A DNA stretch of 64,000 bases from Gandjariella thermophila (GTDB lineage: Bacteria > Actinomycetota > Actinomycetes > Mycobacteriales > Pseudonocardiaceae). Below, piece after piece: positions 6,343 to 23,342 of this stretch. The notes beneath the pieces were generated by a model. The model did not search any database. It was given only the letters and a program-made list of their open reading frames with translations, and had not been told where the DNA came from. Location: assembly GCF_005405885.1 (NCBI RefSeq), contig NZ_BJFL01000011.1, positions 62,001 through 126,000 on the forward strand. Direction: 5' to 3'. Position 1 is the first letter of the stretch. Each line of letters opens with the position of its first letter. Both the position numbers and the translations under genes were made by a program.

Positions 6343-6400
6343 CTGACGGTCCTCCACGTCTGGCGGTGACTGGTCCACTCGTTGCCGCCCCTTTCCGGGG

Positions 6401-7127
<727 letters not shown>

Positions 7128-7167
7128 CCAGCCTCTCCTCACCTCGTCCGGTGGTCTCCGGCGGTGG

Positions 7168-8409
7168 TCAGTCCGAACCGGATCGCCGCAGCACCAGGGC
7201 GGCGTTGAACCCGCCGTGGCCCCGGGCGACGACGAGCGCGGTCCGCGGCCCGGTGTTCCGGGGCTCACCGCTCACCAGGTCGATGTCGCAGCCCGGTGCC
7301 AGCCGGGTCGGGCCGACCGTGTGCGGGATGACCCCGTGCCGCAGGGCCAGCAGCGCGGTAGCGACGTCCAGCGCCGCCCCACCGCCGTACAGCCGGCCGG
7401 TCAACGTCTTCGGCGCGGTGACCGGTACCGACCCTGGCCCGAAGGTCTCGACGAGCGCTCGAGCCTCGATCACGTCGTCCTCCGGCACTCCGGAGGCGTC
7501 CGCGAACACGACGTCCACATCGGACGGTGTGACACCTGCGTCGGCGAGCGCGCGCTCGATGGTGCGGCGCAGCGCCGGCGGCCGGGACGAGCCGGGCGGC
7601 GGGTCGAAGCCGGCGGCGTAGCCGGCGATGACGCCGTACCCCTGCCCGGCGCCGCGGTCGCGGGCGCCGTCCGCGCTCTCCACGATCAGCATGGCGCCGC
7701 CCTCGCCGGGCAGGTAGCCGGACGCCTCCACGTCGAACGGCAGGTATGCCCGCGCCGGGTCGTCCACCGTGGACAGGCGCCGGTTGGAGAGCTGGGCGAC
7801 CAGGCCGTACGGGCACAGCGACGCGTCCGTGCCGCCGCTGACCACCAGGCGCGCCCCGAGCCGGACCAGCCGGCGCGCCTGGCCGAGCACATCCAGCCCG
7901 CCGGCCTGCTCGCAACACATCACCCCGCACGGTCCGCGCATGCCGTGCCGGATGGAGATCTGGCCCGTGGTCGCCGCGTAGAACCACGCGATCGACTGGT
8001 AGGCGCCCACCCAGGACGGGCCGTGCCGGTACAGCCGCTCCATCTCGTGCTGCCCGAACTCGGTGCCGCCCGACGAGCTGGACGTGACGACCGCCATCTC
8101 GTACTCGGGCAGGTCGGCCGGGTCGACTCCGGCGTCGGCGAGCGCCGACGCGGCGGCGGCGAGACCGAGGTGCGTCCCGTGGTCGGTCTGCGGAATGAGC
8201 CGGCCGGGTATCCGGTCCTGCGCCGAGAAACCCGGCACCTGCCCGGCGTACCGCACCGGGTACCGGGCCGGGTCGAAGCGCTCGATCCTGCCGATGCCCG
8301 ACTTTCCGGCCAGCACCGCCTGCCAGTGCGTTTCGACGCCGATTCCGGTCGGCGCGCATACCCCGATGCCGGTGACCACGGGGCCGGTGACCACATCGGA
8401 CGTGCTCAT
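7168..8409 (-). CDS. Type II PKS ketosynthase beta subunit (chain length factor)
   Basis: A 413-residue thiolase-fold protein in which the active-site Cys is replaced by Gln168 (CCEQAGGLDVLG), the diagnostic change of KS-beta. It pairs with KS-alpha to decarboxylate malonyl-ACP and set chain length. Start ATG 8409 has GGGAGGT upstream; the reading frame extends further but lacks homology. The partner KS-alpha is not next to it but at 22004-23278 on the other strand, which is abnormal for this family. A run of SARP-type repeats at 8448-8487 indicates that it has its own promoter within the operon. A pentangular-length chain (about 24-30 carbons) is expected from context, not measured. Confidence 0.93.
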   Translation of the reverse strand: MSTSDVVTGPVVTGIGVCAPTGIGVETHWQAVLAGKSGIGRIERFDPARYPVRYAGQVPGFSAQDRIPGRLIPQTDHGTHLGLAAAASALADAGVDPADLPEYEMAVVTSSSSGGTEFGQHEMERLYRHGPSWVGAYQSIAWFYAATTGQISIRHGMRGPCGVMCCEQAGGLDVLGQARRLVRLGARLVVSGGTDASLCPYGLVAQLSNRRLSTVDDPARAYLPFDVEASGYLPGEGGAMLIVESADGARDRGAGQGYGVIAGYAAGFDPPPGSSRPPALRRTIERALADAGVTPSDVDVVFADASGVPEDDVIEARALVETFGPGSVPVTAPKTLTGRLYGGGAALDVATALLALRHGVIPHTVGPTRLAPGCDIDLVSGEPRNTGPRTALVVARGHGGFNAALVLRRSGSD

Positions 8410-8447
8410 CGGCGACCTCCCGGGTATTCGCTGACCACGTTTCCAGG

Positions 8448-8487
8448 CTGGCGATCCGGGCTGGAAACCAACTCGAACGGCGCTCGA
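8448..8487 (-). promoter_or_regulatory. SARP-type activator box upstream of KS-beta
   Basis: On the minus strand, four heptamers start at exact 11-bp intervals: TCGAGCG (8487), TCGAGTT (8476), TCCAGCC (8465) and TCGCCAG (8454). They end 39 bases before the KS-beta ATG. SARP regulators of the DnrI/ActII-ORF4 type bind TCGAGC-like direct repeats at this spacing just upstream of the -10 element. Confidence 0.7.
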
Positions 8488-8568
8488 CGGTGCCGGGCGA
8501 ACCGCGCGCCGACCCGGCGGAAGAAACATGACGGTGTGCCTGGCCACGGAATAACCGCATTGGCGACA

Positions 8569-9018
8569 TCACGCCAGGACGACGCCGACCGCGTTGGCGA
8601 CGACCGCGAGCAGCGCGAGCGTGGTGCGCAGTAGGTGCCACCGCCGCCACAGCGGCCGGGGGTCGCGCCACCCGGCCGGGATGTCGGCCGGGTCCAGCGA
8701 CTTGACGACCCGGTTGATGGGCACGTTGCAGAAGTGCGAGACCACGGACACCGCGAGCAGCAGCGCGGCGGCCACCGCGAACAGCGCGGTCCCCTTCCTG
8801 GCCAGCACGGCGAGCGCGACGTCGGCGGCCGTCGAGGTCAGCACGATGATCGGCATGGTGGGATCCCACCGCCGGCCGATCAACTGGTGCGCGTAGACGT
8901 ACCGGTCCGCCGGCATGGCGAGCAGTGCGGGGAGCACGCTCAGCGCCACCGCGAACAGCACCCCGGCCACCACCCCGCTGCCGACCAGCACCGCGACCGA
9001 GAGCAGACCACTGATCAC
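8569..9018 (-). CDS. DUF1772 / anthrone oxygenase-like membrane protein
   Basis: A 149-residue integral membrane protein with about four hydrophobic segments (VAVLVGSGVVAGVLFAVAL; PIIVLTSTAADVALAVLA; ALFAVAAALLLAVSVV; LALLAVVANAVGVVLA). It has the family hallmark FCNVPINRVVKSLDP and a C-terminal W-x-x-x-H-x-L-R-T segment. DUF1772 proteins are found in many aromatic polyketide clusters, where some act as cofactor-free anthrone oxygenases giving quinones. The GTG start at 9018 overlaps the stop of the upstream dehydrogenase. A second member is at 30481-30960. Confidence 0.85.
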   Translation of the reverse strand: MISGLLSVAVLVGSGVVAGVLFAVALSVLPALLAMPADRYVYAHQLIGRRWDPTMPIIVLTSTAADVALAVLARKGTALFAVAAALLLAVSVVSHFCNVPINRVVKSLDPADIPAGWRDPRPLWRRWHLLRTTLALLAVVANAVGVVLA

Positions 9019-9905
9019 GGCGGCGACTCACCCGGCTCGGGTGCCGACCGCAGTTCGACCACCGCCGCCGCGTCGTCGTCGCCGCGCCCGCCGCCGAGCA
9101 GCGCACCGAACCGGTCCGACGCGCGTTCGGTCACCGGCAGGCCGACGCCGTGGTCCGCGGCCTCCCGGGCGGCGAGCCGGAGGTCCTTGTGCATCAGCGC
9201 GGCGCGGAACGCGGCCGGCCGGTAGGCGCGCTTCCGCATGAAGTCCGCGCGGAACGCGAGCACCGGCGACCGCCAGCCGCTGCCCGCGAACGCGTCCAGC
9301 AGCAGTTCCCGGTCCATGCCCATGGCCTCCACGAACGCGACCGCCTCGGCCAGTCCCGCGGTCTGCACGCCGAGTAGCAGGTTGAGGGCGAGTTTGAGCA
9401 CGCTGGCGTTGCCGGGCCCGCCGAGGTACCGCACGTCCGGTCCGAGCGCGTCCAGCACGTCGGACACCGCGTCCGCGTCGGCCCGGTCGCCGGCGACGAA
9501 CACGCGCAGCCCACCGGACGCCGCCATCCGCGGGTTGCCGATCACGCACGCCTCCACCCGGCGCACCCCGGCGCCGGCGAGCCGCTTCGCGGTGTCCCGC
9601 GCGAACGCCGGCGACACCGTCGAGGTGTCCACCACGGTCAGCCCGGGGCGCAGCGTGCCGCCCAGCGCACCGAACAGCACTTGCTCGACGGCGTCCTCGC
9701 CGGCGAGGCTGAGCAGCAGCACGTCCGCCGCGGCCACGGCGTCCGCCGGGGTGGCCGCGAGGGTGGCGCCCGCGCGCACCACCGGCTCGGCCTTCGCGGC
9801 GGTCCGGTTGAACGCGGTGACCCGGAATCCCCTGGCGAGCAGGGCGCGTGCCATGCCGGCGCCCATCGCGCCGAGCCCGACCACCCCGATCGGTGCCGTC
9901 CGCAT
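9015..9905 (-). CDS. NAD(P)-dependent oxidoreductase, 6PGDH/3-hydroxyisobutyrate dehydrogenase family
   Basis: A 296-residue two-domain dehydrogenase. The N-terminal Rossmann domain shows GVVGLGAMGAGMA and an FNRT segment suggesting NADP preference, and the C-terminal all-helical domain contains the catalytic Lys region GNASVLKLALNLLLG. Family members reduce or oxidise beta-hydroxyacids, and related proteins occur in natural-product clusters as imine or keto reductases. It sits between the SchA/CurD gene and the DUF1772 gene with 3-base spacing and a GTGA overlap, so it belongs to the pathway. The substrate is unknown. Confidence 0.82.
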   Translation of the reverse strand: MRTAPIGVVGLGAMGAGMARALLARGFRVTAFNRTAAKAEPVVRAGATLAATPADAVAAADVLLLSLAGEDAVEQVLFGALGGTLRPGLTVVDTSTVSPAFARDTAKRLAGAGVRRVEACVIGNPRMAASGGLRVFVAGDRADADAVSDVLDALGPDVRYLGGPGNASVLKLALNLLLGVQTAGLAEAVAFVEAMGMDRELLLDAFAGSGWRSPVLAFRADFMRKRAYRPAAFRAALMHKDLRLAAREAADHGVGLPVTERASDRFGALLGGGRGDDDAAAVVELRSAPEPGESPP

Positions 9906-9908
9906 GGC

Positions 9909-10289
9909 TCACCCCCGCGCCGGATGGGTGTCCACGGACAGCTGGGAGACGCAGCGCATGGTGGCGTCCCGGAAGTAGCTGGCGAAGCCCTCGGCGCTGC
10001 TGGTGTCGCGGGGCTCGGCCAGGTAGGGCGAAAGCCGGTCCTCGATGAGGTGCACCCCGCGCTGCGCGGCCATGTGCCGCCCGATGGCGGCGAAGTCGCC
10101 CTCGTAGTGGATGACCCGCACGACGATGTCGTCCTTGACGAACACCGCGGTGCCGAGCAACCGCCCGGCCGGGGTGCCGTCCTCGCCGAGGAACGTCGGC
10201 GTGTCCACCCGCTGGAAGTCGGCGAAGATGTCGGCGATCTCGTCGTCGTGCCCTGGTTTGACGCGATAGCTGATCGCTGCGTACGGCAT
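9909..10289 (-). CDS. SchA/CurD-like domain protein (copy 1)
   Basis: A 126-residue protein beginning MPYAAISYRVKPGHDDEIA, with FADFQR, GRLLGTAVFVKDD, HYEGDFAAIGRHMA and the C-terminal MRCVSQLSVDT block. These match the SchA/CurD/WhiE-ORFI family of type II PKS clusters, known mainly from spore-pigment and pentangular systems. The fold resembles small ABM-like oxygenases or cyclase helpers; the catalytic role is not established for most members. A second copy lies at 16292-16660. It sits between an FAD hydroxylase and the 6PGDH-like gene in the long leftward operon. Confidence 0.85.
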   Translation of the reverse strand: MPYAAISYRVKPGHDDEIADIFADFQRVDTPTFLGEDGTPAGRLLGTAVFVKDDIVVRVIHYEGDFAAIGRHMAAQRGVHLIEDRLSPYLAEPRDTSSAEGFASYFRDATMRCVSQLSVDTHPARG

Positions 10290-10333
10290 GGCGTTCGTCC
10301 TTTCTGGAATCCTGAGAACCGCGGGTCACCCGC

Positions 10334-12004
10334 TCATCCCGTTACCGCGCTCTGGTCGCGGTGCGCGCCACCGTGCCCGCCGGGCGCCACCTCGCCGGGC
10401 GCCAACCCGCACGCGCGGGCCAGCGCGCCGGCGAGCACCCCGTCCTGGTCGGCCACCCGGCCGGCCGAGCGCGCCGCCACGAACGCGTCCGGGCGCACCA
10501 GCACCGCGCCGTCCTCGGACACGCCGTACGCCGCCGCCCAGTCCCGGTCCACCGGGGTGAGCCCACCGGCGCCGATCACGTGGCTGCGCAGCGGCAGCGA
10601 CAACTGCTTGGCGACCCGCTCGGCCGCGTCCACCCACCCGTTCGCGCGGGAGGCGGTCAGCAGCACGAACTCGTCCCAGAACAGGTCTATTGTGGACAGC
10701 CGCTCGCCGTCCCGGTCGAGCCACACGTGCGGGGCGCGGGTGCCCGGCTCGCCGGTCAGTTCCAGCCGGGGGCTGAGCACCGGCGCGTCCGGCCGGCCGC
10801 CGGTGATCGCGCCGGACCGGTACCGGTACCCGAGCGTGATGATGATGTCGTCGACGAGCGAGGCGTGGGTGTCCTCGTCGGCGTAGCCGTGCCGGATCCG
10901 GTTGCGCACCATCGCCTGCCGCGCCATGGCGGCGCCGACCCCCCGCCGTTCCGCGTCGTAGCTGTCCAGCAGCGCGTCCCCGGCCGTGCCATGCAGCACG
11001 GCCGCGAGCTTCCAGGCGAGGTTGTGCGCGTCGTGGATGCCCGTGTTGGCGCCGAACCCGCCGGCCGGCGGGTGTACGTGCGCGGCGTCGCCGGCGAGGA
11101 ACACCCGGCCCCGGCGGAAGGTTTCGGCCACCAGTTGCGCGCCCTGCCACGGCACCCTGGCGACGATCTCGACCCGCATGTCCGGCTTGCCGGCCGCGGT
11201 GCGCAGGATCTCGACGCACCGCTCGTCCGGGTAGTCGTCCGGGGTCTCCCCCCGGTCCGGGTAGTACAGCGGGGCGGCCAGCCACGGGTCGCAGCCGTGC
11301 AGCCGGGACAGTCCCATCAGCGTGCCGGGTGCCGCGGTCGCGTAGCAGAGGATGAACTTGCGGTCCTTGAGCAGGGTGGTCAGTTCCGGCGCGCGGAAGT
11401 AGATGCTCAGCGCGTTGAAGACGGTGCCGATGCCGGTGCGCCGCACGCCGAGCGCCTGCCGGGTGCGGCTGTTCGCGCCGTCCGCGCCGACCAGGTAGTC
11501 GGCCCGGACCGTGGTCTCCGCGCCGGAGCGGAGGTCCTTGATGGTCGCGGTGACGCCGTCGGCGTCCTGGCTGAACGACGTCAACCGGGTGCCGAACCGG
11601 ACGTCCGCGCCGGACCGGACGGCGAGGTCCGCCAGCACCCGCTCGTAGCGGTCCTGGCCGCAGCCCATCACCCGTTCCGGGCTGACCGTCGGACCGTCCA
11701 GCGACGGCGCCTCGAGCACCACCGCGTCGTCGATCTCGGCGAACGTCCGGACCTGGATGATGCCGCCCTCGAAGTAGGGGTGCGAGTCGCCCACCTCCAG
11801 CGCGCGGATCTCCCGGTGCACCCCCGCCGAGCGGAACAACTCCATGGTGCGCGCCTGCAGCCCCGGCGCGCGCGGCAGCGTCGACGTGCCGTCCCGCTGC
11901 TCGACCAGCAGCGGCCGGACGCCGTGCCGCGCGAGGAAAAGCGCGGTCGAGATCCCGACCGGTCCGGCACCCACCACGAGCACCGGCACGCTGATGTCAG
12001 CCAT
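10334..12004 (-). CDS. FAD-dependent aromatic hydroxylase with C-terminal thioredoxin-like domain
   Basis: A 556-residue class A flavoprotein monooxygenase (PHBH fold). It has an FAD GAGPVGIS loop at the N-terminus, the DG motif region (YLVGADGANS), and GDAAHVHPPAGGFGANTGIHDAHNLAWKL. The C-terminal 150 residues (ELTGEPGTRAPHVWLD onward) form the thioredoxin-like domain typical of RdmE/PgaE/OxyS-type polyketide hydroxylases. It uses NADPH and O2 to hydroxylate an aromatic ring and is probably a tailoring enzyme. It resembles 28838-30469 in domain layout, so the cluster has two of this type. Start ATG 12004. Confidence 0.92.
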   Translation of the reverse strand: MADISVPVLVVGAGPVGISTALFLARHGVRPLLVEQRDGTSTLPRAPGLQARTMELFRSAGVHREIRALEVGDSHPYFEGGIIQVRTFAEIDDAVVLEAPSLDGPTVSPERVMGCGQDRYERVLADLAVRSGADVRFGTRLTSFSQDADGVTATIKDLRSGAETTVRADYLVGADGANSRTRQALGVRRTGIGTVFNALSIYFRAPELTTLLKDRKFILCYATAAPGTLMGLSRLHGCDPWLAAPLYYPDRGETPDDYPDERCVEILRTAAGKPDMRVEIVARVPWQGAQLVAETFRRGRVFLAGDAAHVHPPAGGFGANTGIHDAHNLAWKLAAVLHGTAGDALLDSYDAERRGVGAAMARQAMVRNRIRHGYADEDTHASLVDDIIITLGYRYRSGAITGGRPDAPVLSPRLELTGEPGTRAPHVWLDRDGERLSTIDLFWDEFVLLTASRANGWVDAAERVAKQLSLPLRSHVIGAGGLTPVDRDWAAAYGVSEDGAVLVRPDAFVAARSAGRVADQDGVLAGALARACGLAPGEVAPGGHGGAHRDQSAVTG

Positions 12005-12043
12005 ACTCTTCGTCCTTCGCTCGATACCGGCGACAGTCGGGGA

Positions 12044-12901
12044 TCAGGGGAAGCACACCTTGGCCAGCAGTTCGAGCTGGTCCACGTCGGCGGTGCACGG
12101 GAAGAGCAGCAACTCGTCGCATCCGGCGGCGGCGTAGCCGTCGATCGTCTCCCGCAGCCGGCCCTCGTCGGCGATCACGCCGGAGGCGAGGAACCGGGCC
12201 TTCTCGCCCAGGTAGGAGTAGTAGTCGAGCAGGTACTCGCCACCCTGCCGTTTCCGGTCGTCGCCGAGCGCCACGTAGGTGAGCGCGCCCAGCTTCGGCG
12301 TGTCCGTCCGGCCGGCCTGCGCCCACGCGGCCCGCACCTTCTCGGCCTGCTCGGGATACCGGGCCACCGGGCCGCCGCCGGACACCCAGCCGATGCCGTG
12401 CCGGGCGGCGCGCGGCAGTGCTGCCGGCGAGTTGCCGCCGATCCACAGTGGAACGGTGCCGCTGGTTGGTTTCGGGCCGATGCCGGGCACCGCGCCCCCG
12501 CCGGACCACACCCGCTTCATCTCGTCCAGCAGTTCGTCCAGCCACCGGCCGCGGGTGTGGTAGTCGACGCCGGTGGCCTGGAAGTCGTCCTCCCGCCCGC
12601 CGGCGGCGACGCCGACCACGAGCCGCCCGCCAGCGATCCGGTCCACGCTGGCCAACTGCTTGGCCAGCAGCGCGGCGCTCGGCCAGTACGCGGCCAGCAG
12701 GATGGTCGGCGCCAGGGTGATGCGGGTGGTGACGGCGGCGGCCGCGGCGAGCGTCACGGTGGCGTCGTAGCTGTCGTAGACCATCCGGTCGAGCACGGCG
12801 AGCGTGCTGAACCCCAGCCCGTCCGCGCGGGCGGCGAACTCGACCAGTTGCCGGCCGTCGGCGCCGGGAACGGTGTTCGGCAGCCCAACTCCAATGTCCA
12901 T
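12044..12901 (-). CDS. LLM-class flavin-dependent oxidoreductase
   Basis: A 285-residue TIM-barrel protein of the bacterial luciferase-like family (FMN- or F420-dependent). It begins MDIGVGLPNTVPG and has FAARADGLGFSTLAVLDR, RITLAPTILLAAYW, LASVDRIAGGRLVVGVAAGG and a C-terminal DELLLFPCTADVDQLELLA. In aromatic polyketide clusters such enzymes act as flavin monooxygenases or F420 reductases; sequence alone does not separate these. Start ATG 12901 was chosen because family homology begins at once; an in-frame upstream extension is Arg-rich. It lies between two FAD monooxygenases, with 40- and 58-base gaps. Confidence 0.85.
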   Translation of the reverse strand: MDIGVGLPNTVPGADGRQLVEFAARADGLGFSTLAVLDRMVYDSYDATVTLAAAAAVTTRITLAPTILLAAYWPSAALLAKQLASVDRIAGGRLVVGVAAGGREDDFQATGVDYHTRGRWLDELLDEMKRVWSGGGAVPGIGPKPTSGTVPLWIGGNSPAALPRAARHGIGWVSGGGPVARYPEQAEKVRAAWAQAGRTDTPKLGALTYVALGDDRKRQGGEYLLDYYSYLGEKARFLASGVIADEGRLRETIDGYAAAGCDELLLFPCTADVDQLELLAKVCFP

Positions 12902-12959
12902 CACGGTCCTCCTCCGGGTTGGTTTCTCGTGGCGGGACGGGCGCCGCACCGCCGGCCGG

Positions 12960-14246
12960 TCACCCGGTGGTGTTCGCCGCCAGCACCGACTCGTCGAAAT
13001 CGATCCGCTGCAGCGACCACTTCGCCACCTGCAGTGACATCGCCACCGCCTCGGTGGCGTAGCCGAGCATCTCGGCCTGGTAGCGCTCGGCCGCCTCGGT
13101 CACCGAGCGCTCGCCCCGGTCGGCGGCGAGCAGTTCGCGGACCAGCGTGCTGGCGTCCCGCACCGCCGTGTTCGCGCCCACCCCGCCGGAGGGCGGCATG
13201 GCGTGCGCGGCGTCCCCGACCGGGATGACGGGGCCGGGCTGCCACGGTTCGATCGGCGCGGTGGCCCGCACGACGACCGGGAACGTCTCGGCGACGTCGG
13301 CGTACCTCAGCACGGCACGCAGGGCCGGATGCCAGCCCGCGGTGCGCTCCTGGACGAACCGCCACAGGCGCGGGCCGTCCATGGCGAGGAACTCCGCGTC
13401 CGGCATCCCGGTCACGGTGCGGTGCATGGAGAACACCGACATGACGTAGTCCTCGCTGTCGCCGAGGTCGAGTCCCGGCCACAGCCGCGCCGCCGCCTCC
13501 GCCGGCCTGGTACGGAACACCATCGGCATCAGGCCGAGCTTGTGCCCGTCGGAGCCGATCACCCAGGTGAACCGGTCCTGCAGGAACTCGGGCAGCTCGC
13601 GGCGCAGTTCCCCGGTCATCGGGATACGGCCGAAAACGGTCCGGACGCCGAGGTCCCGGGGCTCGGCGTGGATTCCGCGCTGCCGCCGGATCGGCGAGTT
13701 GCCGCCGTCCGCCGCGACCAGGACGTCACCGGCGGCCACCGTGCCGTCCGCGAAGTGGGCGACGACGGCGCCGTCCGGCGCTGTCTCGTAGCGGACGAAC
13801 CGCTTTCCGAAGTGGACGATGCCGTTGAGCCCGGCGAGCAGCACCCGGCGCAGCGTCACCCGGTCCACGGCGTCCACCTTGTCCGGGTCGGCGGCGCGCG
13901 GGTCGTCGAACCGCGGCGCCCACTGGCTGGCCAGGTGCTCGTCGTAGACGGCCATGCCGTAGCCGTAGCGGCTGTTCGCGGTGGCGCTCAGCAGTTCCGC
14001 CGCCCGCGGGGGCAGGCAGTCGCGCAGCGCGCGTTCCCCCTCCGGGCTGATGTGCAGCCGGTATCCCTGGTTGCGGCCACGCACCGAGCCGTCCCGCTCG
14101 TACACGGCGACCCGGATGCCGGCGGTGCGCAGCCCCTGCGCGAGGCACAGCCCGCCGACCCCGCCGCCGATCACGACGACCCGCAGGCCGCGCCGCGACT
14201 CCCCGCGGCCGCCGCCGCTGCCGGTGGCCACCGCGTCACACCCCAC
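12960..14246 (-). CDS. FAD-dependent monooxygenase, compact type (no thioredoxin domain)
   Basis: A 428-residue flavoprotein: GGGVGGLCLAQGLR nucleotide loop, YRLHISPEGERAL, the DRVTLRRVLL segment, VLVAADGGNSPIRRQ and GDAAHAMPPSGGVGANTAVRDA. It lacks the C-terminal thioredoxin domain of the larger hydroxylases and shares this form with 31243-32592. Compact flavin monooxygenases of lysolipin/xantholipin-type clusters carry out ring-opening and xanthone-forming oxidations, so this pair are candidates for such chemistry; that is inference. The GTG start at 14246 overlaps the upstream SDR by 11 bases; GTG 14231 is an alternative. Confidence 0.88.
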   Translation of the reverse strand: MGCDAVATGSGGGRGESRRGLRVVVIGGGVGGLCLAQGLRTAGIRVAVYERDGSVRGRNQGYRLHISPEGERALRDCLPPRAAELLSATANSRYGYGMAVYDEHLASQWAPRFDDPRAADPDKVDAVDRVTLRRVLLAGLNGIVHFGKRFVRYETAPDGAVVAHFADGTVAAGDVLVAADGGNSPIRRQRGIHAEPRDLGVRTVFGRIPMTGELRRELPEFLQDRFTWVIGSDGHKLGLMPMVFRTRPAEAAARLWPGLDLGDSEDYVMSVFSMHRTVTGMPDAEFLAMDGPRLWRFVQERTAGWHPALRAVLRYADVAETFPVVVRATAPIEPWQPGPVIPVGDAAHAMPPSGGVGANTAVRDASTLVRELLAADRGERSVTEAAERYQAEMLGYATEAVAMSLQVAKWSLQRIDFDESVLAANTTG

Positions 14247-14973: not shown

Positions 14974-15048
14974 CGGACGCCACCTTTCTCGGCCAACCGA
15001 CTCGCGGCGTGGTCGCCTGTGATCCGTCGCGGCGATGCTGGCAACGCC

Positions 15049-15077
15049 GGGCCGAGCGGTACTCGAAACCCGGTCGA
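15049..15077 (-). promoter_or_regulatory. SARP-type box for the long leftward operon
   Basis: On the minus strand, TCGACCG (15077), TCGAGTA (15066) and TCGGCCC (15055) start exactly 11 bp apart, 76 bases before the GTG of the SDR gene. The 15060 region also forms a 12-bp inverted repeat with 15130-15141 (ACTCGAAACCCG against CGGGTTTCGAGT), which joins this box to the divergent one. Confidence 0.68.
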
Positions 15078-15123
15078 GAACACCGACCCGGCCGCGCCAC
15101 CGGTGCCGAGGCGTTCGCCGGCT

Positions 15124-15152
15124 TCCAACGGGTTTCGAGTCCTGCTCCACCT
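15124..15152 (+). promoter_or_regulatory. SARP-type box for the rightward O-methyltransferase
   Basis: On the plus strand, TCCAACG (15124), TCGAGTC (15135) and TCCACCT (15146) start at exact 11-bp steps, 54 bases before the ATG at 15206. With the minus-strand box at 15049-15077 this makes a divergent, probably co-activated, promoter region. Confidence 0.65.
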
Positions 15153-15205
15153 CGGGGTGGAACCTGAACAGGGCACTCTGGTTTTCGAGAAAGGGAGTCG
15201 AGCAC

Positions 15206-16213: not shown

Positions 16214-16237
16214 GCGCGGGCGGCACCCCCGCGGGAG

Positions 16238-16263
16238 GGGCCGGGATCGTGCGATCCCGGCCC
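16238..16263. terminator. Bidirectional terminator hairpin
   Basis: A perfect 12-bp stem, GGGCCGGGATCG with CGATCCCGGCCC, with a 2-base loop. It lies between the convergent O-methyltransferase and SchA/CurD genes. Confidence 0.75.
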
Positions 16264-16291
16264 GTCCCGTTCGGCCCCGTGGTCGCGGCGG

Positions 16292-16660
16292 TCAGCTGCG
16301 CGGCACCGCGAACTGGGTGATGCATCGCAGCATGCTGGCCTTGAAGGTGCGCACGAAACCGTCCACCGTGCCGGTGTCCCTCGGCGTGTTCAGGTACGGC
16401 GCGAGCCGGCGTTCCACCTCCCGCACCCCCGGCTGGCCGGCCATGAACCGGGCCACCGCGTCCAGGTCGCCCTCGTACTCGATGAACCGCACCAGCGTGG
16501 CGTCCCGGATGAACACCGCAGTGGCGAGGATCCGGCCGGCCGGCCTGCCCTCGCCGTCCGGGACCACGGTGGACTTCGGCCGCTGGAAGTCGCGGAAGAC
16601 CTCGGCGACCTCGTCCTCGCATCCGCTCCTGATGTCGTAGGTGATGGCCGCGTACGGCAT
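16292..16660 (-). CDS. SchA/CurD-like domain protein (copy 2)
   Basis: A 122-residue homologue of the protein at 9909-10289: it begins MPYAAITYDIRSG and has FRDFQRPKS, GRILATAVFIRDA, RFIEYEGDLDAVARFMAG and the C-terminal SMLRCITQFAVPR block. The family (WhiE-ORFI, CurD, SchA) is tied to type II PKS operons and has no agreed biochemical function. It is the last gene of the leftward operon GT-P450-OMT-CurD and lies 32 bases after the OMT stop. Two such genes in one cluster, one per operon, is not the usual arrangement. Confidence 0.85.
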   Translation of the reverse strand: MPYAAITYDIRSGCEDEVAEVFRDFQRPKSTVVPDGEGRPAGRILATAVFIRDATLVRFIEYEGDLDAVARFMAGQPGVREVERRLAPYLNTPRDTGTVDGFVRTFKASMLRCITQFAVPRS

Positions 16661-16692
16661 GGGTCGCTCCCTCCCCCGTCCGTGGGTTCGCG

Positions 16693-17748
16693 TCAGCGCG
16701 ACTTCCTGGCGACCACCGCGGTTTCCAGGCCGTCGAACAGCGGCAGCGCGGCGACCGAGGCGAACCCCGCGTCGGTCGCGTACCGGCGGCAGTCGGCCAC
16801 CGTGTACTCCGCGCCGCCCGGGGTCACCACCAGTAGGTTCAGGCAGCCGAGGAGGCCGAGCGCGTTCTCGCGCCGGTCGTCGTCAATCATCCGGTCGTAG
16901 ATCACCACGATGCCGCCGGGCCGCACCGCGTCGTGCGCCTTGCGCACCAGCGTGGCCCGCTCCGCCTCGTCCCAGTCGTGCAGGATGTGCCCGAAGATCA
17001 GCACGTCGGCGGGGGGCAGCGGCTCGGTGAAGAAGTCGCCGACCACGAAGTCGACGCGGTCGGCGGTGCCCTTGTCCCGCATGTGCTCGGTGAACAGGTC
17101 GGCGATCTCCGGCCGGTCGAACACCACCCCGCGCAGGTGCGGGTGCGCGTTGACCAGGTGCGCGGACAGGTTCCCCCGGGCGCCGCCGACGTCGACGAAC
17201 GTGGTGTGCTCGCGCCAGTCGAGCCCCGTGGCGAGTTCGGTGGCGATGTGCGTGGTCCACGCGTCCATCGCCGCGATGAAGCCGCGCCGCTCGTCCCTGT
17301 CCTCGTACAGGCGCTCGAAGTAGTCCGCGCTGTCCCAACCGATGTACGGCTTGCCGGTGCGCAGGCTCTCGGTGAGGCCGCCCCACGCGCGGAAGAGGTG
17401 CTTGCTGGCCTGCCGCATCCACCCGCCGAGGTAGGTGTCCCTGTTCTCGTCGAGGAAGTAGCCGGTGGCCGGCGTGTTGCGGTACAGCCCGTCGTCCCGC
17501 TCCAGCATGCCGAGCGCCACCAGCGCGTCCAGGAAGTCCCGCGCCGAGCGGGGATGCAGGTCCAGCCGCGCGCGTAGCTGCTCCACGCTCGCCGGCCCGG
17601 CGCCGAGTTCGGTGAACAGTCCGATCTCGACGGCGGTGAGCAGCGTCTTGGCGCCCCAGAACGAGGTGCCCAGCTCGATGATGGGTCGGGCGCTGGGCGC
17701 GCCGTGCGCCGCGCGCGTCAGGGTCGTGGCGCGGTCCGTGGTGGTCAT
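16693..17748 (-). CDS. SAM-dependent O-methyltransferase (acetylserotonin OMT-like)
   Basis: A 351-residue methyltransferase with the same two-domain plan as 15206-16213. The dimerisation domain contains FWGAKTLLTAVEIGLF and LHPRSARDFLDALVALGML; the SAM motif is FVDVGGARGNLS; LIFGHILHDWDE carries the likely catalytic His. It probably methylates a phenol of the polyketide core. It is 49 bases downstream of the P450 gene and 32 bases upstream of the SchA/CurD gene in one operon, so hydroxylation by the P450 followed by methylation is plausible, though not shown. Confidence 0.9.
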   Translation of the reverse strand: MTTTDRATTLTRAAHGAPSARPIIELGTSFWGAKTLLTAVEIGLFTELGAGPASVEQLRARLDLHPRSARDFLDALVALGMLERDDGLYRNTPATGYFLDENRDTYLGGWMRQASKHLFRAWGGLTESLRTGKPYIGWDSADYFERLYEDRDERRGFIAAMDAWTTHIATELATGLDWREHTTFVDVGGARGNLSAHLVNAHPHLRGVVFDRPEIADLFTEHMRDKGTADRVDFVVGDFFTEPLPPADVLIFGHILHDWDEAERATLVRKAHDAVRPGGIVVIYDRMIDDDRRENALGLLGCLNLLVVTPGGAEYTVADCRRYATDAGFASVAALPLFDGLETAVVARKSR

Positions 17749-17796
17749 GGTGTCGCGGTCCTTCCTCGGGTTTCCGGCGGGGTCGGGGGCGGGCCG

Positions 17797-19050
17797 TCAC
17801 CACCGCAGCGGCAGGGTGTCCGGCCGGGTGAACGCGCGGTTCGCCGTCCACCGCAGCTCGCCGGCCGGCACGGCGACGCGGAACTCGCCGAGGTGTTCCA
17901 GCAGCCGGTCCAGCGCGACGGTCAGCTCCACCCGCCCGAGGTGCGCGCCGAGGCAGTGGTGGATGCCGTGGCCGAAGGCGAGGTGCGGGTTCGGCGTCCT
18001 GGTCAGGTCGAGTTCCTCGGCGCCGGCGAAGACGCTCTCGTCGCGGTTCGCCGAGTTGATGCACGGCAGCACGGCGTCGCCGGCGCGGATCGGGACACCG
18101 CCGATCTCCATGTCCGCCAGCGCGATCCGGATGGGGCCGACGCCGCCGCCGGCCTGCGAGTACCGCAGCAGTTCGTCCACGGCGACCGGGAGTTGGTCGC
18201 GGTGCTCGACCAGCCGCCGGACGGCGCCGGGCCGCTCGGTCAGGGTGAGCACGCCGTGCGCGATCTCCGAGGTGGTCGCGTGGTAGCCGGCCATCAGCAT
18301 GGTCTCGCCGAACGCGAGCAGTTCCTCGGTGGACAGCGAGTCATCCTCGTCCCGTGCCGTGATCAGCACGGTGAGCAGGTCGTCGGCGGGGTGGCGCTGC
18401 TTCGTCTCGATCAGCGCGGTGAGGTACCGGCGCAGCCTGGCGGCGGCGTCACTGACCTCGGCGGAGGTGCGGGCGCTGACGCTGAGCATCACGTCCGTCC
18501 ACTCCCGGAACAGCAGGTGGTCCCGCTGCGGGACGCCGAGCATCTCGCAGATCACCGTGATGGGCAGCGGCTGGGCAAGGTGCGCGATGAGGTCGGCCGG
18601 GGGTCCCTGCGCGACCATGCCGGACACCATCTGCTCGGCGAGTTCCTCGACCCTCGGCCGCAGGTTCTCCACCTGCCGGGTGGTGAACACCCGGCCCACC
18701 AGCCTGCGCAGCCGGGTGTGCTCCGGCGGGTCCATCACGAAGATCGACTTGGATCCGGCGGCGACCGGCAGCAGCCGCGGCGCGCCCGGCCGGGTGATCG
18801 CCTCCCGGCTGAACCGGGGGTCGGCCAGCACCCTGCGCACCTCCGCGTGCCGGGTCACCAGCCAGACGGTGTGCCCGTTGGCCAGCGCGACCCTGGCGAC
18901 CGGCCGCTCCGCGCGCAGCCGGGCGTACTCCCCGGGCGGTCGCAACGGGTCCGCACTGGCGAACGGGAAGCGGAGCAGCCCGTCGTCCCGCCGTACCGCC
19001 TCGGCCGACTCGTCCCGGTGCTCCGGTGGCGCGACCGCGTCGTTCGTCAT
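17797..19050 (-). CDS. Cytochrome P450 with unusual I-helix
   Basis: A 417-residue P450. The heme-binding loop is FGHGIHHCLGAHLGR with Cys366 as thiolate ligand, and DELLRY is the ExxR motif. DPPEHTRLRRLVGRVFT is a typical actinomycete C-helix. The I-helix reads LMAGYHATTSEIA: aligned to the usual AGHETT it has His and Ala where the acid-alcohol pair (Asp/Glu-Thr) normally protonates bound oxygen. This may indicate coupling or ring-forming chemistry instead of simple hydroxylation, but other P450s tolerate such changes. The ATG overlaps the stop of the glycosyltransferase gene (ATGA). Confidence 0.92.
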   Translation of the reverse strand: MTNDAVAPPEHRDESAEAVRRDDGLLRFPFASADPLRPPGEYARLRAERPVARVALANGHTVWLVTRHAEVRRVLADPRFSREAITRPGAPRLLPVAAGSKSIFVMDPPEHTRLRRLVGRVFTTRQVENLRPRVEELAEQMVSGMVAQGPPADLIAHLAQPLPITVICEMLGVPQRDHLLFREWTDVMLSVSARTSAEVSDAAARLRRYLTALIETKQRHPADDLLTVLITARDEDDSLSTEELLAFGETMLMAGYHATTSEIAHGVLTLTERPGAVRRLVEHRDQLPVAVDELLRYSQAGGGVGPIRIALADMEIGGVPIRAGDAVLPCINSANRDESVFAGAEELDLTRTPNPHLAFGHGIHHCLGAHLGRVELTVALDRLLEHLGEFRVAVPAGELRWTANRAFTRPDTLPLRW

Positions 19051-20279
19051 CTCTCCCGCTCCTCGCTCCCGTTCCCTGGCACGGCAGGTTCACAGCACCC
19101 GCTCGGAGCCGGCTCGACGGCGGATCGAGGGTGGTGGGATGCCCGCAGCGACTCCAGCGCGGCGACCACGCTCGTCGCGGGCGGCTGCCCGCGCATCTCC
19201 GCGGCCACCGCCCTGGCGGCCGCCCGCTCCGGTGCGTCCCCGGCCACCAGGCGGCCGATCGCCTCCCGCAGCACGGCCGGCTCGGCCTCGCCGATGCCCA
19301 GCACCAGGCCGGCACCGCGCGCGGCCACCCGCGCCGCGTGGCCGGCGTGGTCCGGTAACTGCGGCACCAGCAGCAGCGGCACGCCGCCCAGCAGCGCGGT
19401 GAGGATGCTGCTCGCGCCGCCGTGGCCGACGAGCAGGTCACAGCCGGCCAGGACGTGCTGGAGGGGCTTGTCGACCAGGACCCGGACGCCGTCCGGCAGC
19501 GGAGCGAGCAGCGGGCGCTGCGCCGCCGACACGGCGAGCACCACCTCGACGTCGAGGTCCGCCGCGGCGGCGACGACCCGGTTCACCGGGAACCGGTGCG
19601 GTTCGACCCTGGCGATGGTGTGTCCCCAGCTCACGCACACCCGAGGCCGGTCGCCGGCGGTGGGCAGGCCGACCGGCAGCACGGCGGGACCGTTGAACGG
19701 CACGTACCGGATGGGCAGCCGGCGGTGGTCGCCGGTCACCTGCATGCTGGCCGGCACCGGGTCGACGGTGGCGACCCCGCACGGGTCGAACCCCGTGCCG
19801 CCGCACCGGTCGGCCAGCGGCGCGAACGCCTCGGTGAGCACCGCGCTCACCGGCCCGAGCAGGTCGGCCCCGTACAGGTGCCGCACGGCGGGCACCCCGG
19901 CCGCCGCGGCCGCCAGCGGGCCGGCCAGCGCGGTCGGGTGGTAGACCACCAGGTCCGCCCGCCAGTCGCCAACCAGCTCCACCAGATCGTCCACCATGGA
20001 CTCGGCGTGCGCGAGCAGCATGCGGACCGCCCGGGGACGGCCGCCGTTGCCTGCCGCGCGGCCACCGCCGGTGGGCAGCAGGTACTCGCGCACCATGCCG
20101 GCGGTGTCCACGTCCGTGCCGACCGTCGCGGCCGGCAGCCCGGCGCGCAGGATGTCGCCGAGCAGTCCGGGCTGGCTGGCGAACAGGACGTCGTGCCCTG
20201 CCGCGCGGCACGCCCAGGCCAGCGGCGCGAGCGCGTACAGGTGCGTCGGCCACGCCCAGGTCGTGAACACCACCCGCAT
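19047..20279 (-). CDS. GT1-family glycosyltransferase (natural product type)
   Basis: A 410-residue GT-B fold enzyme. It begins MRVVFTTWAWPTHLYALAPLAWA, the acceptor-domain opening common in antibiotic glycosyltransferases. It has VRHLYGADLLGP in the middle and the nucleotide-sugar signature VGHGGASSILTALLGGVPLLLVPQLPDHAGHAARV near the C-terminus. It probably transfers a (deoxy)sugar from a TDP or UDP donor onto the polyketide. No deoxysugar biosynthesis gene lies in the window, so the donor must come from elsewhere. It is the first gene of the leftward operon with a P450, an OMT and SchA/CurD copy 2, behind a two-repeat SARP-like box at 20344-20361. Confidence 0.9.
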   Translation of the reverse strand: MRVVFTTWAWPTHLYALAPLAWACRAAGHDVLFASQPGLLGDILRAGLPAATVGTDVDTAGMVREYLLPTGGGRAAGNGGRPRAVRMLLAHAESMVDDLVELVGDWRADLVVYHPTALAGPLAAAAAGVPAVRHLYGADLLGPVSAVLTEAFAPLADRCGGTGFDPCGVATVDPVPASMQVTGDHRRLPIRYVPFNGPAVLPVGLPTAGDRPRVCVSWGHTIARVEPHRFPVNRVVAAAADLDVEVVLAVSAAQRPLLAPLPDGVRVLVDKPLQHVLAGCDLLVGHGGASSILTALLGGVPLLLVPQLPDHAGHAARVAARGAGLVLGIGEAEPAVLREAIGRLVAGDAPERAAARAVAAEMRGQPPATSVVAALESLRASHHPRSAVEPAPSGCCEPAVPGNGSEERER

Positions 20280-20343
20280 GTCGGCCTCCCTCCTCGGATT
20301 CGCTCGGCGCCGGCGGCGCGCGGACGGTGACCGTGGCATCGCG

Positions 20344-20361
20344 GGCTGGAGGCTCGCTCGA
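20344..20361 (-). promoter_or_regulatory. SARP-type box (two repeats) for the glycosyltransferase operon
   Basis: On the minus strand, TCGAGCG (20361) and TCCAGCC (20350) are 11 bp apart, 64 bases before the ATG. The TCGAGC core is palindromic; a further TCGAGCC at 20407-20413 on the plus strand may serve the divergent SDR gene. Confidence 0.55.
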
Positions 20362-20464
20362 GCAGCCGCCGCGCGGTGGCCGGCGTGACCCGTTCACCAG
20401 CACGGGTCGAGCCGGCCCGGCGAGCATCGGCGCGAACCGCAGCCGAGCAGCCGATGGGGGCGCC

Positions 20465-21148
20465 GTGGCCGACCAGCGCACCGCACTGATCACCGGGGCG
20501 AACCGGGGGCTGGGGCACGCCGTCGCCGCCGAACTCGCCCGCCGGGGCCTGCGGGTGATCGTGACCGCGCGGGACCCGGCGTCCGCCGGGCGCGCCGCCG
20601 CCGAGATCGGGCCGGACGTCCGATCGCATCAGCTCGACGTGACCGACCCGGCCAGCGTGCGGCGGGCGGCCGGCGAACTGGCCGGCGTGGACGTGCTGGT
20701 GTGCAACGCCGGCGTGCTGCTCGACGGCGGCCACGACCCGCTCACCGTGCCGCTGGACCTGGTGGAACGCACGCTGGCGGTGAACCTGCTCGGCGGGTGG
20801 CGGGTCGCGCAGTCGTTCCTGCCGGGCATGGTGGCGCGCGGCTGGGGCCGGGTGGTGTTCGTGTCCAGCGCCACCGGGTCGTTCCATGTCGGGCTGTGGA
20901 CCGGCGCGCCGGCGTACTCGCTGTCCAAGACGGCGGTCAACGGCCTGACCAGCCTGCTCGCCGCCCGCACCAGGGGCACCGGCGTCCTGGTGAACGCGGT
21001 GAACCCCGGCCGGGTGCGGACCAGGATGGTGCCCACCGCGGACCGCGCCGCCGAGGACGCCGCCGTGGACGTCGCGGACGCGGCGACCCTGCCGGACGAC
21101 GGTCCGACCGGGACGTTCCTGCGCGGCGGGCAACCCGTCCCCTGGTGA
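20465..21148 (+). CDS. SDR family oxidoreductase (carbonyl reductase-like)
   Basis: A 227-residue SDR: ITGANRGLGHAVAAEL, CNAGVL, VSSATGSF with the catalytic Ser, and YSLSK with the Tyr-Lys pair. It lacks the C-terminal DGG sequence of FabG-like members and instead ends TGTFLRGGQPVPW, like carbonyl/quinone reductases. It would reduce a ketone or quinone of the intermediate with NADPH. The GTG start at 20465 sits at the edge of homology. It is divergent from the glycosyltransferase and followed, after 92 bases, by the TcmI-like cyclase operon. Confidence 0.85.
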   Translation: MADQRTALITGANRGLGHAVAAELARRGLRVIVTARDPASAGRAAAEIGPDVRSHQLDVTDPASVRRAAGELAGVDVLVCNAGVLLDGGHDPLTVPLDLVERTLAVNLLGGWRVAQSFLPGMVARGWGRVVFVSSATGSFHVGLWTGAPAYSLSKTAVNGLTSLLAARTRGTGVLVNAVNPGRVRTRMVPTADRAAEDAAVDVADAATLPDDGPTGTFLRGGQPVPW

Positions 21149-21158
21149 CGGGGCGGGT

Positions 21159-21187
21159 CCGAGGCGGGTTCGAGCCGGTCTCCATCG
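21159..21187 (+). promoter_or_regulatory. SARP-type box for the cyclase/KS-alpha operon
   Basis: CCGAGGC (21159), TCGAGCC (21170) and TCCATCG (21181) start at 11-bp steps on the plus strand, 54 bases before the GTG at 21241. This spacing matches the boxes at other cluster promoters. Confidence 0.6.
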
Positions 21188-21240
21188 CGGGCGCCGAGCA
21201 TCGACCCGCCCGTCCGACCACGTTCGCAGGAGGCGAGACC

Positions 21241-21576
21241 GTGCACCGCACCCTGATCGTCGCCAGGCTCAGGACCACAGACCCGCAGCGGATCGCGGAC
21301 GTCTTCGCCGCGTCCGACGCCACCGATCTGCCGCACATGGTCGGCGTGTCCCGAAGGACGCTGTTCAGCTTCCACGACCTGTACTTCCACCTGGTCGAGG
21401 CGGACCAGGACATCGCGCCGAACCTGTACCGTGCCCGCAGCCACCCGCTGTACCAGGACATCAACACCAAACTCGCCCGGTTCGTGGCGCCGTACGACCC
21501 CGGCTGGAAGGAACCGAAGGACGCGATGGCGTCGCCGTTCTACGTGTGGACGGCCGAGGAGGGCCGGGTGCGATGA
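21241..21576 (+). CDS. TcmI family polyketide cyclase
   Basis: A 111-residue single-domain protein of the polyketide synthesis cyclase family (TcmI, WhiE-ORFVII). It begins HRTLIVARL and has DVFAASDATDLPHMVGVSRR, LFSFHDLYFHLVEA, SHPLYQDINTKLARFV and a final SPFYVW. The family closes later rings of pentangular polyketides. The GTG start at 21241 has GGAGGCGAG upstream. Its stop overlaps the start of the cupin gene (ATGA), which in turn overlaps KS-alpha, so cyclase-cupin-KS-alpha form a tight translationally coupled operon. Confidence 0.92.
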   Translation: MHRTLIVARLRTTDPQRIADVFAASDATDLPHMVGVSRRTLFSFHDLYFHLVEADQDIAPNLYRARSHPLYQDINTKLARFVAPYDPGWKEPKDAMASPFYVWTAEEGRVR

Positions 21577-22007
21577 CCACGGTTCGCGCGGAGAACGTGA
21601 GGGTCAACGTCGCCGACGCGGTGCCGAACCGGCGCAGGGGCGGCGACATCCGGGTCACGCTGAGCCCGAAGACGGTCGGCTCGACCTCCGGCTTCGGCGG
21701 GTTCCTCCACCTCGGGCCCGGCGAGTTCGTCACCGAGCACTACCACCCCTACTCCGAGGAGTTCCTGCACGTCGTCGCCGGCGACCTGGAGATGACGGTG
21801 GACGGCGTGCCGATCCGCCTCGGCCCCGGTGACTCGCTGATCGTGCCGATCGGTCTGCGGCACCGGCTGGTGAACGTCGGCGAGTCCGTCGCGCAGGCGG
21901 TGTTCCACCTGTCCCCGCTGGCGCCGCGCCCGGAACTCGGCCACGTCGACACCGAGCAGCCGGGGAACCCGGACGCACCGAACCCGGCGGTCGGAGGTGC
22001 CCGATGA
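21573..22007 (+). CDS. Cupin-domain polyketide cyclase/helper (WhiE-ORFII type)
   Basis: A 144-residue single cupin. Motif 1 lies in [21 protein letters not shown] (metal-binding His residues and Glu) and motif 2 in [16 protein letters not shown]. Cupins next to KS-alpha are a hallmark of spore-pigment and pentangular PKS clusters and are thought to assist ring closure or oxidation. Coupled by ATGA overlaps to the TcmI-like gene upstream and KS-alpha downstream. The last 25 residues are Pro/Asn-rich and outside the fold. Confidence 0.9.
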
Positions 22008-23278
22008 GCAGGACGGCCACCATCACCGGCATCGGTGTCGTGGCGCCGGGGGGCGTGGGCCGGGAACCCTTCTGGGAGTTGCTGGCCGCCGGACGGACGG
22101 CCACCCGCCGGATCACCCTGTTCGACCCCGCCGAGTTCCGCTCGCAGATCGCCGCCGAGGTCGACTTCGATCCGAAGGCGGCGGGCCTTTCCGCGCAGCA
22201 GGTTCGGCGGATGGACCGGGCCGCGCAGTTCGCCACGGTCTGCACCCGGGAGGCGGTGGCCGACAGCGGCCTCGATCTGTCCTCAGTAGACCCGGAGCGG
22301 GTCGCGGTGAGCATCGGCAGCGCCGTCGGCTGCACCATGGGTCTGGAGGAGGAGTACGCGGTGCTCGCCGACGACGGCCGGCGCTGGCTGGTCGACCACA
22401 CCTACGGCGTGCCGCACCTGTACGGCTACATGGTGCCGAGCACCCTCGCCGTGGAGGTCGCCTGGGAGGTGGCCGCCGAGGGTCCGACCGCGCTGATCTC
22501 CACCGGGTGCACGTCCGGGCTGGACGCGGTCGGCCACGGTGCCGCGCTGATCGAGGAGGGCTCGGCGGACGTGGTGCTCGCCGGCGCCACGGACGCGCCG
22601 CTGTCCCCGATCACCTCGGCGTGCTTCGACGCGATCCGGGCGACCTCGCCCAACAACGACGACGCCGAGCACGCCTCCCGGCCGTTCGACGCCAGGCGCG
22701 ACGGGTTCGTGCTGGGCGAGGGGGCCGCGGTGCTGGTGCTGGAGGAGGCGGGGGCGGCCCGCCGCCGCGGCGCCCGGGAGTACGCGCACGTCGTCGGGTT
22801 CGCCAGCCGCAGCAACGCCTTTCACATGACCGGCCTGAAACCGGACGGGCGGGAGATGGCCGAGGCCATCCGGATCGCCATGGCCGCCGCCCGGGTCGAC
22901 CCGGCCGACGTGGACTACGTCAACGCCCACGGCTCCGGCACGAAGCAGAACGACCGGCACGAGACGGCGGCGTTCAAGCGCAGCCTCGGGCCCCGTGCCT
23001 ACGAGGTCCCGGTCAGCTCGATCAAGTCGATGATCGGTCACTCGCTCGGCGCGATCGGCTCGCTGGAGATCGCCGCCTGCGCGCTCGCCCTGGACCGCCA
23101 GGTGGTGCCGCCGACGGCGAACCTGCACAACGCCGATCCGCTGTGCGACCTCGACTACGTTCCGGTCACCGCCCGGGAGCACCGGATGGACGTGGTGCTG
23201 ACCGTGGGCAGCGGGTTCGGCGGTTTCCAGAGCGCGATGCTGCTCGCCGGGCCGGAAGCGGCGCGCGACCGGAAGTAG
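22004..23278 (+). CDS. Type II PKS ketosynthase alpha subunit
   Basis: A 424-residue catalytic ketosynthase. Active residues are Cys169 ([12 protein letters not shown]), His309 (NAHGSGT) and His346 ([12 protein letters not shown]), the same numbering as in the actinorhodin enzyme as I recall it. It extends the polyketide on ACP as a heterodimer with KS-beta. The expected neighbour KS-beta is absent here; downstream is a terminator hairpin and a convergent P450 gene. KS-alpha therefore ends its operon, and KS-beta lies 14 kb away on the opposite strand. Dimer assembly would need balanced expression from two promoters, both with SARP-type boxes. Confidence 0.95.
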
Positions 23279-23296
23279 GCGCGCCCGACGGAATCG

Positions 23297-23322
23297 TGCC
23301 GCCCGGGTCAACCCGGGCGGCA
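23297..23322. terminator. Bidirectional terminator hairpin
   Basis: An 11-bp perfect stem, TGCCGCCCGGG with CCCGGGCGGCA, and a TCAA loop, between the convergent KS-alpha and P450 genes. Confidence 0.75.
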
Positions 23323-23342
23323 TGCCGTCTTCGGATACCCGG

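Follow-up and report, generated by a model that had tools for sequence, protein, structure and literature searches.

Among the described systems closest to the locus reported here are the pentangular polyphenol clusters, which are recognized by three kinds of cyclase plus a ketoreductase (KR) (PMC4383371); the enzymes of xantholipin and arixanthomycin have been described (PMC9327801), and a carboxylase is reported in the albofungin cluster (PMC7902042). The ketosynthase (KS-alpha) and the chain length factor (CLF, KS-beta) of type II polyketide synthases (PKSs) were surveyed in a 2023 catalogue of 6352 KS-CLF pairs, which kept only pairs within 2000 bp and from which one characterised CLF, AQ-256, was lost for want of a KS within that distance (PMC10132072). 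Here we describe a type II PKS cluster from Gandjariella thermophila in which KS-alpha and KS-beta stand apart on opposite strands. The stretch analysed, hereafter the window, comprises 64,000 nucleotides (assembly GCF_005405885.1, contig NZ_BJFL01000011.1) and corresponds to positions 62001-126000 of contig 11 in a 6.1-Mb draft genome of 131 contigs.

KS-beta lies on the minus strand and KS-alpha on the plus strand, with 13,594 bp between them, and both open reading frames (ORFs) are open and full-length. The split, the catalytic residues and the neighbours named in an initial annotation of this DNA all stand. KS-beta carries Q168 and adjoins the acyl carrier protein (ACP), aromatase/cyclase, KR and antibiotic biosynthesis monooxygenase (ABM) genes, and KS-alpha carries C169, H309 and H346 and follows an SDR, a TcmI-like cyclase and a cupin. 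The accompanying claim that no second copy of either gene exists holds within the window but not genome-wide, where three further KS-alpha/KS-beta pairs, all adjacent, are found on contigs 17, 20 and 4 (KS-beta 64, 55 and 51% identical to that of the window). The two genes and their neighbours are as follows.

7168-8409, minus strand: KS-beta (chain length factor), ATG start at 8409, Q168 replacing the active-site Cys, motif CEQAGG
6867-7127, minus strand: acyl carrier protein (PF00550), start within ORF 6867-7268 at the ATG preceding the conserved part
6401-6865, minus strand: aromatase/cyclase (polyketide cyclase/dehydrase; PF03364, PF10604)
5590-6378, minus strand: ketoreductase (SDR), in the same block in relatives
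5240-5659, minus strand: antibiotic biosynthesis monooxygenase (PF03992)
8569-9018, minus strand: anthrone oxygenase-like gene (PF08592) directly upstream of KS-beta, a junction shared in relatives
20327-21148, plus strand: SDR reductase upstream of TcmI, start approximate
21241-21576, plus strand: TcmI-like polyketide cyclase (PF04673 in ORF 20701-21576; start from sequence), first in the KS-alpha unit
21546-22007, plus strand: cupin cyclase, TcmJ-like (PF07883), true start probably downstream of 21546
22004-23278, plus strand: KS-alpha (ketosynthase), C169/H309/K341/H346, start overlapping the cupin stop by 4 bp

The arrangement is best read, with a probability of roughly 0.72, as a working cluster in which an ordinary KS/CLF heterodimer is supplied from two transcription units and the supply is matched by a shared SARP activator. 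An ancestral operon SDR-TcmI-cupin-KSalpha-KSbeta-ACP-aromatase-KR-ABM would have broken precisely between KS-alpha and KS-beta, leaving two independent transcription units, one on each strand, separated by tailoring genes, and the heterodimer would assemble post-translationally from two mRNAs. Matched supply, once aided by an ATGA translational overlap, would now be transcriptional: similar 11-bp direct repeats before KS-beta and before TcmI-cupin-KS-alpha are the predicted binding sites of a SARP-type activator from the left cluster edge, and in a subgroup lacking such boxes KS-beta may be coupled by overlap to a POT-family transporter gene instead.

Recurrence, anatomy and probable enzyme partnership

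The class-wide sample comprises 394 genomes, 85 of them with KS-beta at E <= 1e-110. With the window genome and its three KS-beta genes omitted, 84 remained, whose 112 KS-beta genes were paired by searches for KS-alpha. All 112 are adjacent, 111 within 195 bp of KS-alpha and the last one on inspection, which bears out the adjacency rule invoked by the initial annotation, and the window breaks that rule. G594:C8, considered in this sample as a KS-beta without KS-alpha, was dismissed when its KS-alpha was found adjacent. A host-family sample of 390 genomes, with a match at E <= 1e-145 in 66 and 76 KS-beta genes, includes 19 KS-beta genes more than 300 bp from KS-alpha; both the family and the class searches scored four KS-beta candidates per genome, and some KS-beta genes may be missed. 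The loci in named genomes number 141; of the 80 best, 69 have the two genes adjacent and 11 have them split. Three genomes are common to this list and the host-family list, and the Amycolatopsis and Kibdelosporangium genomes, judged by shared record coordinates, belong to the same family group as the host.

Counting split genomes, as the initial annotation had proposed, gives 27 distinct clusters, the window's included. No second KS-beta stands beside KS-alpha in the window, and a family with frequent splits, which that annotation held would speak against its view, does exist in part, since 27 distinct clusters are split. The distance between the genes is 1.2-36.5 kb where measurable, and 24 of the 26 pairs on one contig lie more than 2000 bp apart; a 2-kb rule is thus a blind spot of the catalogue, under which these 24 of 26 measurable pairs would be missed. 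The layouts comprise (i) KS-alpha upstream on the opposite strand (n = 11: the window, G193, G211, G216, Amycolatopsis eburnea, A. circi, Kibdelosporangium persicum, G164, G273, G152 and G015); (ii) KS-alpha downstream on the opposite strand (n = 8: Nonomuraea pusilla, N. aurantiaca, Nonomuraea sp. MG754425, [Actinomadura] parvosata, N. wenchangensis, Micromonospora veneta, G243 and G276); (iii) both genes split on the same strand (n = 7: G269, G195, Microtetraspora glauca, G225, G154, G190 and G029); and (iv) Micromonospora sicca, with the genes on two contigs. Six of the split clusters (G211, G216, G164, G152, G276 and G269) are in single-contig genomes, and nearly the same gene order as in the window is found in G193, G211, G216, A. 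eburnea and A. circi, the KS-beta proteins being 80-84% identical. In [Actinomadura] parvosata (L036/L207), KS-alpha occupies two reading frames, through a frameshift or a sequencing error, in a cluster that is otherwise split.

Mapping of the window proteins onto 31 other stretches discloses two blocks: TcmI-cupin-KS-alpha, kept in 22 of the 27 split clusters (exceptions G195, G225, G154, G190 and G029), and KS-beta with KR-ABM, mostly accompanied by ACP and aromatase, in 24 of the 27 (exceptions G273, A. circi and G029). Much of the gene order around both blocks is shuffled among split clusters; the relatives examined keep KS-alpha and KS-beta inside one cluster, and the anthrone oxygenase stands directly before KS-beta in 10 of the 17 split clusters of the main clade described below. 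The trio G225, G154 and G190 displays KS-alpha after ABM in the same direction, with the cupin immediately before KS-beta. ACP and aromatase are also detached from KS-beta in G243 and G269, and were not found in the examined stretches of N. pusilla, N. aurantiaca, Nonomuraea sp. MG754425 and [Actinomadura] parvosata. In G243 (L171, L223, L224) and G269 (L172-L174) the ACP-aromatase pair follows an anthrone oxygenase, KS-beta is with KR-ABM and KS-alpha with TcmI-cupin; in G269 the pair is placed in the KS-alpha row. The closest adjacent relative is the cluster of Streptomyces caatingaensis (L034, G065), with largely the same gene set and KS-alpha and KS-beta 87% and 84% identical, which differs in that the half-operons are joined as TcmI-cupin-KSalpha-KSbeta-ACP with an ATGA overlap.

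The fold of both proteins is settled by their matches to the two chains of the actinorhodin heterodimer: the best solved relative of KS-alpha is 1tqy_A (E 2.8e-176; next match 6.4e-88) and that of KS-beta 1tqy_B (E 9.3e-142; next match 2.8e-54), both far above any FabF. The window pair displays the Cys-His-His triad and the Gln and CLF-chain match of a type II KS/CLF and lacks gene adjacency, which is a property of gene order rather than of the enzyme. In KS-alpha, C169/H309/K341/H346 are invariant in 25/25 split and 100/100 adjacent rows examined (two split clusters lie outside the set), and the KS-beta Gln is kept in 24/25 and 96/100, respectively. Between the distance matrices of the two proteins the correlation is r = 0.910 for 21 split clusters (without the G225/G154/G190 trio and G029) and 0.908 for 21 hand-picked adjacent rows, values reached by 0 of 5000 re-pairings. 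KS-alpha and KS-beta co-evolve in split clusters as in adjacent ones; together with the kept residues, this fits a heterodimer assembled in trans, though it falls short of proving contact.

SARP-type repeats and possible alternative coupling

The operators of the SARPs ActII-ORF4 and DnrI are described as TCGAGXX heptamers with 4-bp spacers, that is, a period of 11 (PMC6510168). The predicted sites of the window share this 11-bp period but display the half-site YTCSAG, sometimes three in succession. The scan required YTCSAG twice at period 11 (maximum score 12, hit threshold 11) and returned 16 sites scoring >=11 in the whole window, against 3.6 (sd 2.2) in 20 shuffles. Only two sites score 12, one before KS-beta and one between the glycosyltransferase and SDR genes; further boxes lie before TcmI, between the SDR and O-methyltransferase genes, and between the second anthrone oxygenase and FMO4. 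The activator gene stands at the left cluster edge (contig 11, 60102-62027; L164:2102-4027, minus strand), and among the 26 other split clusters, 18 have a SARP gene in the stretch examined.

8461-8488, minus strand: SARP-type box of three 11-bp repeats (GTCGAG/TTCGAG/TTCCAG), 52-79 bp before the KS-beta start
21158-21185, plus strand: SARP-type box of 11-bp repeats (TCCGAG/TTCGAG/CTCCAT) before TcmI-cupin-KS-alpha
20346-20362: SARP-type box between glycosyltransferase and SDR, score 12 on the minus strand and 11 on the plus strand
15062-15150: SARP-type boxes between SDR and O-methyltransferase (15078 minus; 15123 and 15134 plus), which would act as a promoter only if the methyltransferase starts downstream of the ORF start at 15035
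1-27, minus strand: 5' end of the AfsR/SARP-type activator gene (Trans_reg_C, BTAD and NB-ARC), which exits the window leftwards

A box scoring >=11 lies on the coding strand within 220 bp upstream of KS-beta in 12/27 split clusters versus 1/100 adjacent ones, and on the other strand in 2/27 split; control periods of 7 to 15 bp give 0-1/27. Upstream of TcmI a box is found in 45/81 cases (15/25 split, 30/56 adjacent), with 0-7/81 at other periods, and seven split clusters display boxes at both KS-beta and TcmI. L011, alone among the adjacent clusters in reaching score 11 before KS-beta, no longer has overlapping KS-alpha and KS-beta genes; its box lies in the gap. Exact 11-mers common to six intergenic stretches were not found.

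Several observations weigh against shared control by a SARP. Period 15 likewise yields 16 window sites scoring >=11, none at 12. The first 40 kb hold 15 period-11 sites, of which 5 are intragenic. In 15/27 split clusters KS-beta remains below score 11 (six of these reach 10), a cut-off of 10 weakens the contrast to 18/27 split versus 10/100 adjacent, and a SARP gene was not found in the examined stretch of 8 of the 26 other split clusters. The KS-beta count is also partly circular, because the consensus was chosen after viewing several such upstream sequences; this applies less to the period control and to the TcmI count.

In the box-less clusters of G243, N. pusilla, N. aurantiaca, Nonomuraea sp. 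MG754425 and [Actinomadura] parvosata, KS-beta overlaps by ATGA an ORF of 500-528 residues, a POT-family transporter in 3/3 tested of the five. The transporter genes with this overlap, at 8496-10004 in L029 and L030 and at 7684-9186 in L171, represent a new coupling partner.

Origin of the split and competing explanations

Single-protein trees comprise 125 rows (25 split, 100 adjacent; three of 128 dropped as duplicates) and leave out [Actinomadura] parvosata, with its broken KS-alpha, and M. sicca, on two contigs; the concatenated tree comprises 52 hand-chosen rows without the G225/G154/G190 trio and G029. Changes between split and adjacent number eight on the KS-beta tree and five on the KS-alpha tree, of which firm branches force three and two, respectively, and four on the concatenated tree, of which one is forced. 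The main group unites 17 split clusters with S. caatingaensis (support 82/93). That this adjacent, ATGA-overlapping cluster nests within the split clade leaves the number of splits unsure.

A KS-beta start codon lies -30 to +15 bp from the KS-alpha stop in 87/100 adjacent pairs, with the -4 position occupied in 66, and 13/100 lack one there. In the M. veneta/M. glauca group (support 88/88) all seven adjacent rows (L010, L011, L149, L155, L158, G072 and G074) are among these 13, for which reason uncoupling looks like an intermediate step; S. caatingaensis, fully coupled inside the main split group, misfits a simple series from uncoupling to split. In G072 (L215) KS-alpha and KS-beta are still adjacent, and much of the 113 bp that separates them is taken up by a long inverted repeat (GAGCCTGTTTTTGAT...ATCAAAAACAGGCTC).

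We tentatively suggest, at somewhat under even odds, that the KS-alpha/KS-beta junction of the split clade, the most conserved one in aromatic polyketide operons, is dissolving by a repeatable route, with KS-beta becoming an independent module. The overlap would be lost first, a SARP promoter would then arise between the genes (as in L011 and perhaps L010), and the units would scatter; alternatively, KS-beta would be re-coupled by ATGA to an unrelated gene, such as that of the POT transporter. KS-beta would then be a chain-length-setting module that may be independently tuned or exchanged, and ACP can leave too, as in G243 and G269.

It is doubtful that the main clade goes back to a single ancient split, after which S. 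caatingaensis rejoined the genes or received a joined copy, instead of to several independent breaks. The anthrone oxygenase-KS-beta junction common to 10 of the 17 clusters would fit such an event, as would the sufficiency of 4, 5 or 8 changes on the three trees, with only one to three forced by well-supported branches. However, the exact ATGA overlap of S. caatingaensis is unlikely to re-arise, an approximately unbiased (AU) test nominally rejects monophyly of the 17 split clusters without S. caatingaensis (p 0.030, for a group named post hoc from the tree), and G195, G276, G029, the Micromonospora/Microtetraspora pair and the G225/G154/G190 trio display other layouts outside the main clade.

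Decay of the cluster, in which the split destroyed a needed coupling and left the pathway silent or dead, is improbable: the translational overlap is lost and one relative, [Actinomadura] parvosata (L036), has KS-alpha in two reading frames, but the core ORFs of the window are intact, the KS-alpha catalytic residues are invariant, boxes are present, and five further genomes with 80-84% identical KS-beta share the near-identical layout. Still less credible is partner exchange, whereby KS-beta or KS-alpha of the window would pair with a protein from another type II PKS locus; the genome does hold three other pairs, yet the KS-alpha and KS-beta distances agree equally in split and adjacent clusters and the relatives examined retain both genes in one cluster. 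The split recurs elsewhere and is not an artefact of assembly: misassembly of the contig, conceivable in a draft of 131 contigs, is rejected because nearly the same order is present in the independent assemblies of A. eburnea, A. circi, G193 and the single-contig genomes G211 and G216.

Product class and comparison with known systems

Beyond the two KS genes, the window comprises the following features of the cluster.

1009-4661, minus strand: acetyl-CoA carboxylase genes (biotin carboxylase, biotin carboxyl carrier protein and carboxyltransferase parts), downstream end of the KS-beta block
9015-20339: intervening tailoring genes for an NAD-binding reductase, two SchA/CurD proteins, flavin and luciferase-type monooxygenases, an SDR, two O-methyltransferases, a P450 and a glycosyltransferase
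23295-23324: strong hairpin 3' of KS-alpha, between the convergent KS-alpha and P450 genes (z -3.39; 1/200 shuffles as good), likely a bidirectional terminator
24597-26567, minus strand: asparagine-synthase-type amidotransferase with a putative XanA/Arx5-like role

Apart from these, the AT-richer gap between divergent TetR and MFS genes (27282-27404) contains palindrome-like sequence, with export control probable, and outside the cluster core a sigma-70-type factor (regions 2 and 4) at 37605-38618 carries a C-terminal SnoaL-like domain.

The gene content fits a cluster of the pentangular-polyphenol type: three kinds of cyclase (TcmN-, TcmI- and TcmJ-like) and a KR are present at the level of Pfam families. 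One Pfam ABM protein (5240) and two SchA/CurD proteins that are not adjacent (9909 and 16292) are candidate counterparts of PdmH/PdmI. The xantholipin/arixanthomycin type of polycyclic xanthone is marked by a XanO4-type Baeyer-Villiger monooxygenase and an amidotransferase, for which several FAD_binding_3 monooxygenases and an AsnB-type protein are candidates; NCBIfam returned no family for the window cyclases or the SchA/CurD proteins. Judged from these genes, the product is probably a glycosylated, amide-containing polycyclic xanthone resembling arixanthomycin or amexanthomycin, a comparison drawn from PMC9327801 and PMC8037709. Amexanthomycin was also considered as the product by way of G192, whose KS-beta is 63% identical to that of the window and adjacent to KS-alpha, and no link was made.

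Separated KS-alpha and KS-beta genes in this group were not found described in the portions of the literature consulted, which did not extend to the arixanthomycin and amexanthomycin gene maps, so that an unremarked split may exist in print. The recurrence of the split suggests that tight KS-alpha/KS-beta linkage is not required and puts a name to its possible replacement, which bears on the reasons why operons keep the subunits of a complex together and on the building of hybrid synthases.

Compared with the known systems, the window resembles the polycyclic-xanthone and pentangular clusters (xantholipin, lysolipin, albofungin, arixanthomycin and amexanthomycin) in its three cyclase kinds, KR, ABM and SchA/CurD proteins, and also in the flavin monooxygenases, amidotransferase, acetyl-CoA carboxylase and glycosyltransferase. 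AQ-256 belongs to the anthraquinone pathway of Gram-negative bacteria. Its CLF resembles the KS-beta of the window in being reported without a KS inside 2000 bp (PMC10132072). The albofungin cluster differs, with KS-beta and KS-alpha consecutively numbered and the ACP apart (Alb36, Alb37 and Alb44 in PMC7902042; abf23, abf24 and abf32 in PMC9469721). Relative to the actinorhodin-type KS/CLF (1tqy) and its type II minimal PKS, the likeness lies in the matches to both heterodimer chains and the kept catalytic residues, whereas the genes of the window are 13.6 kb apart and divergent, with upstream repeats of their own.

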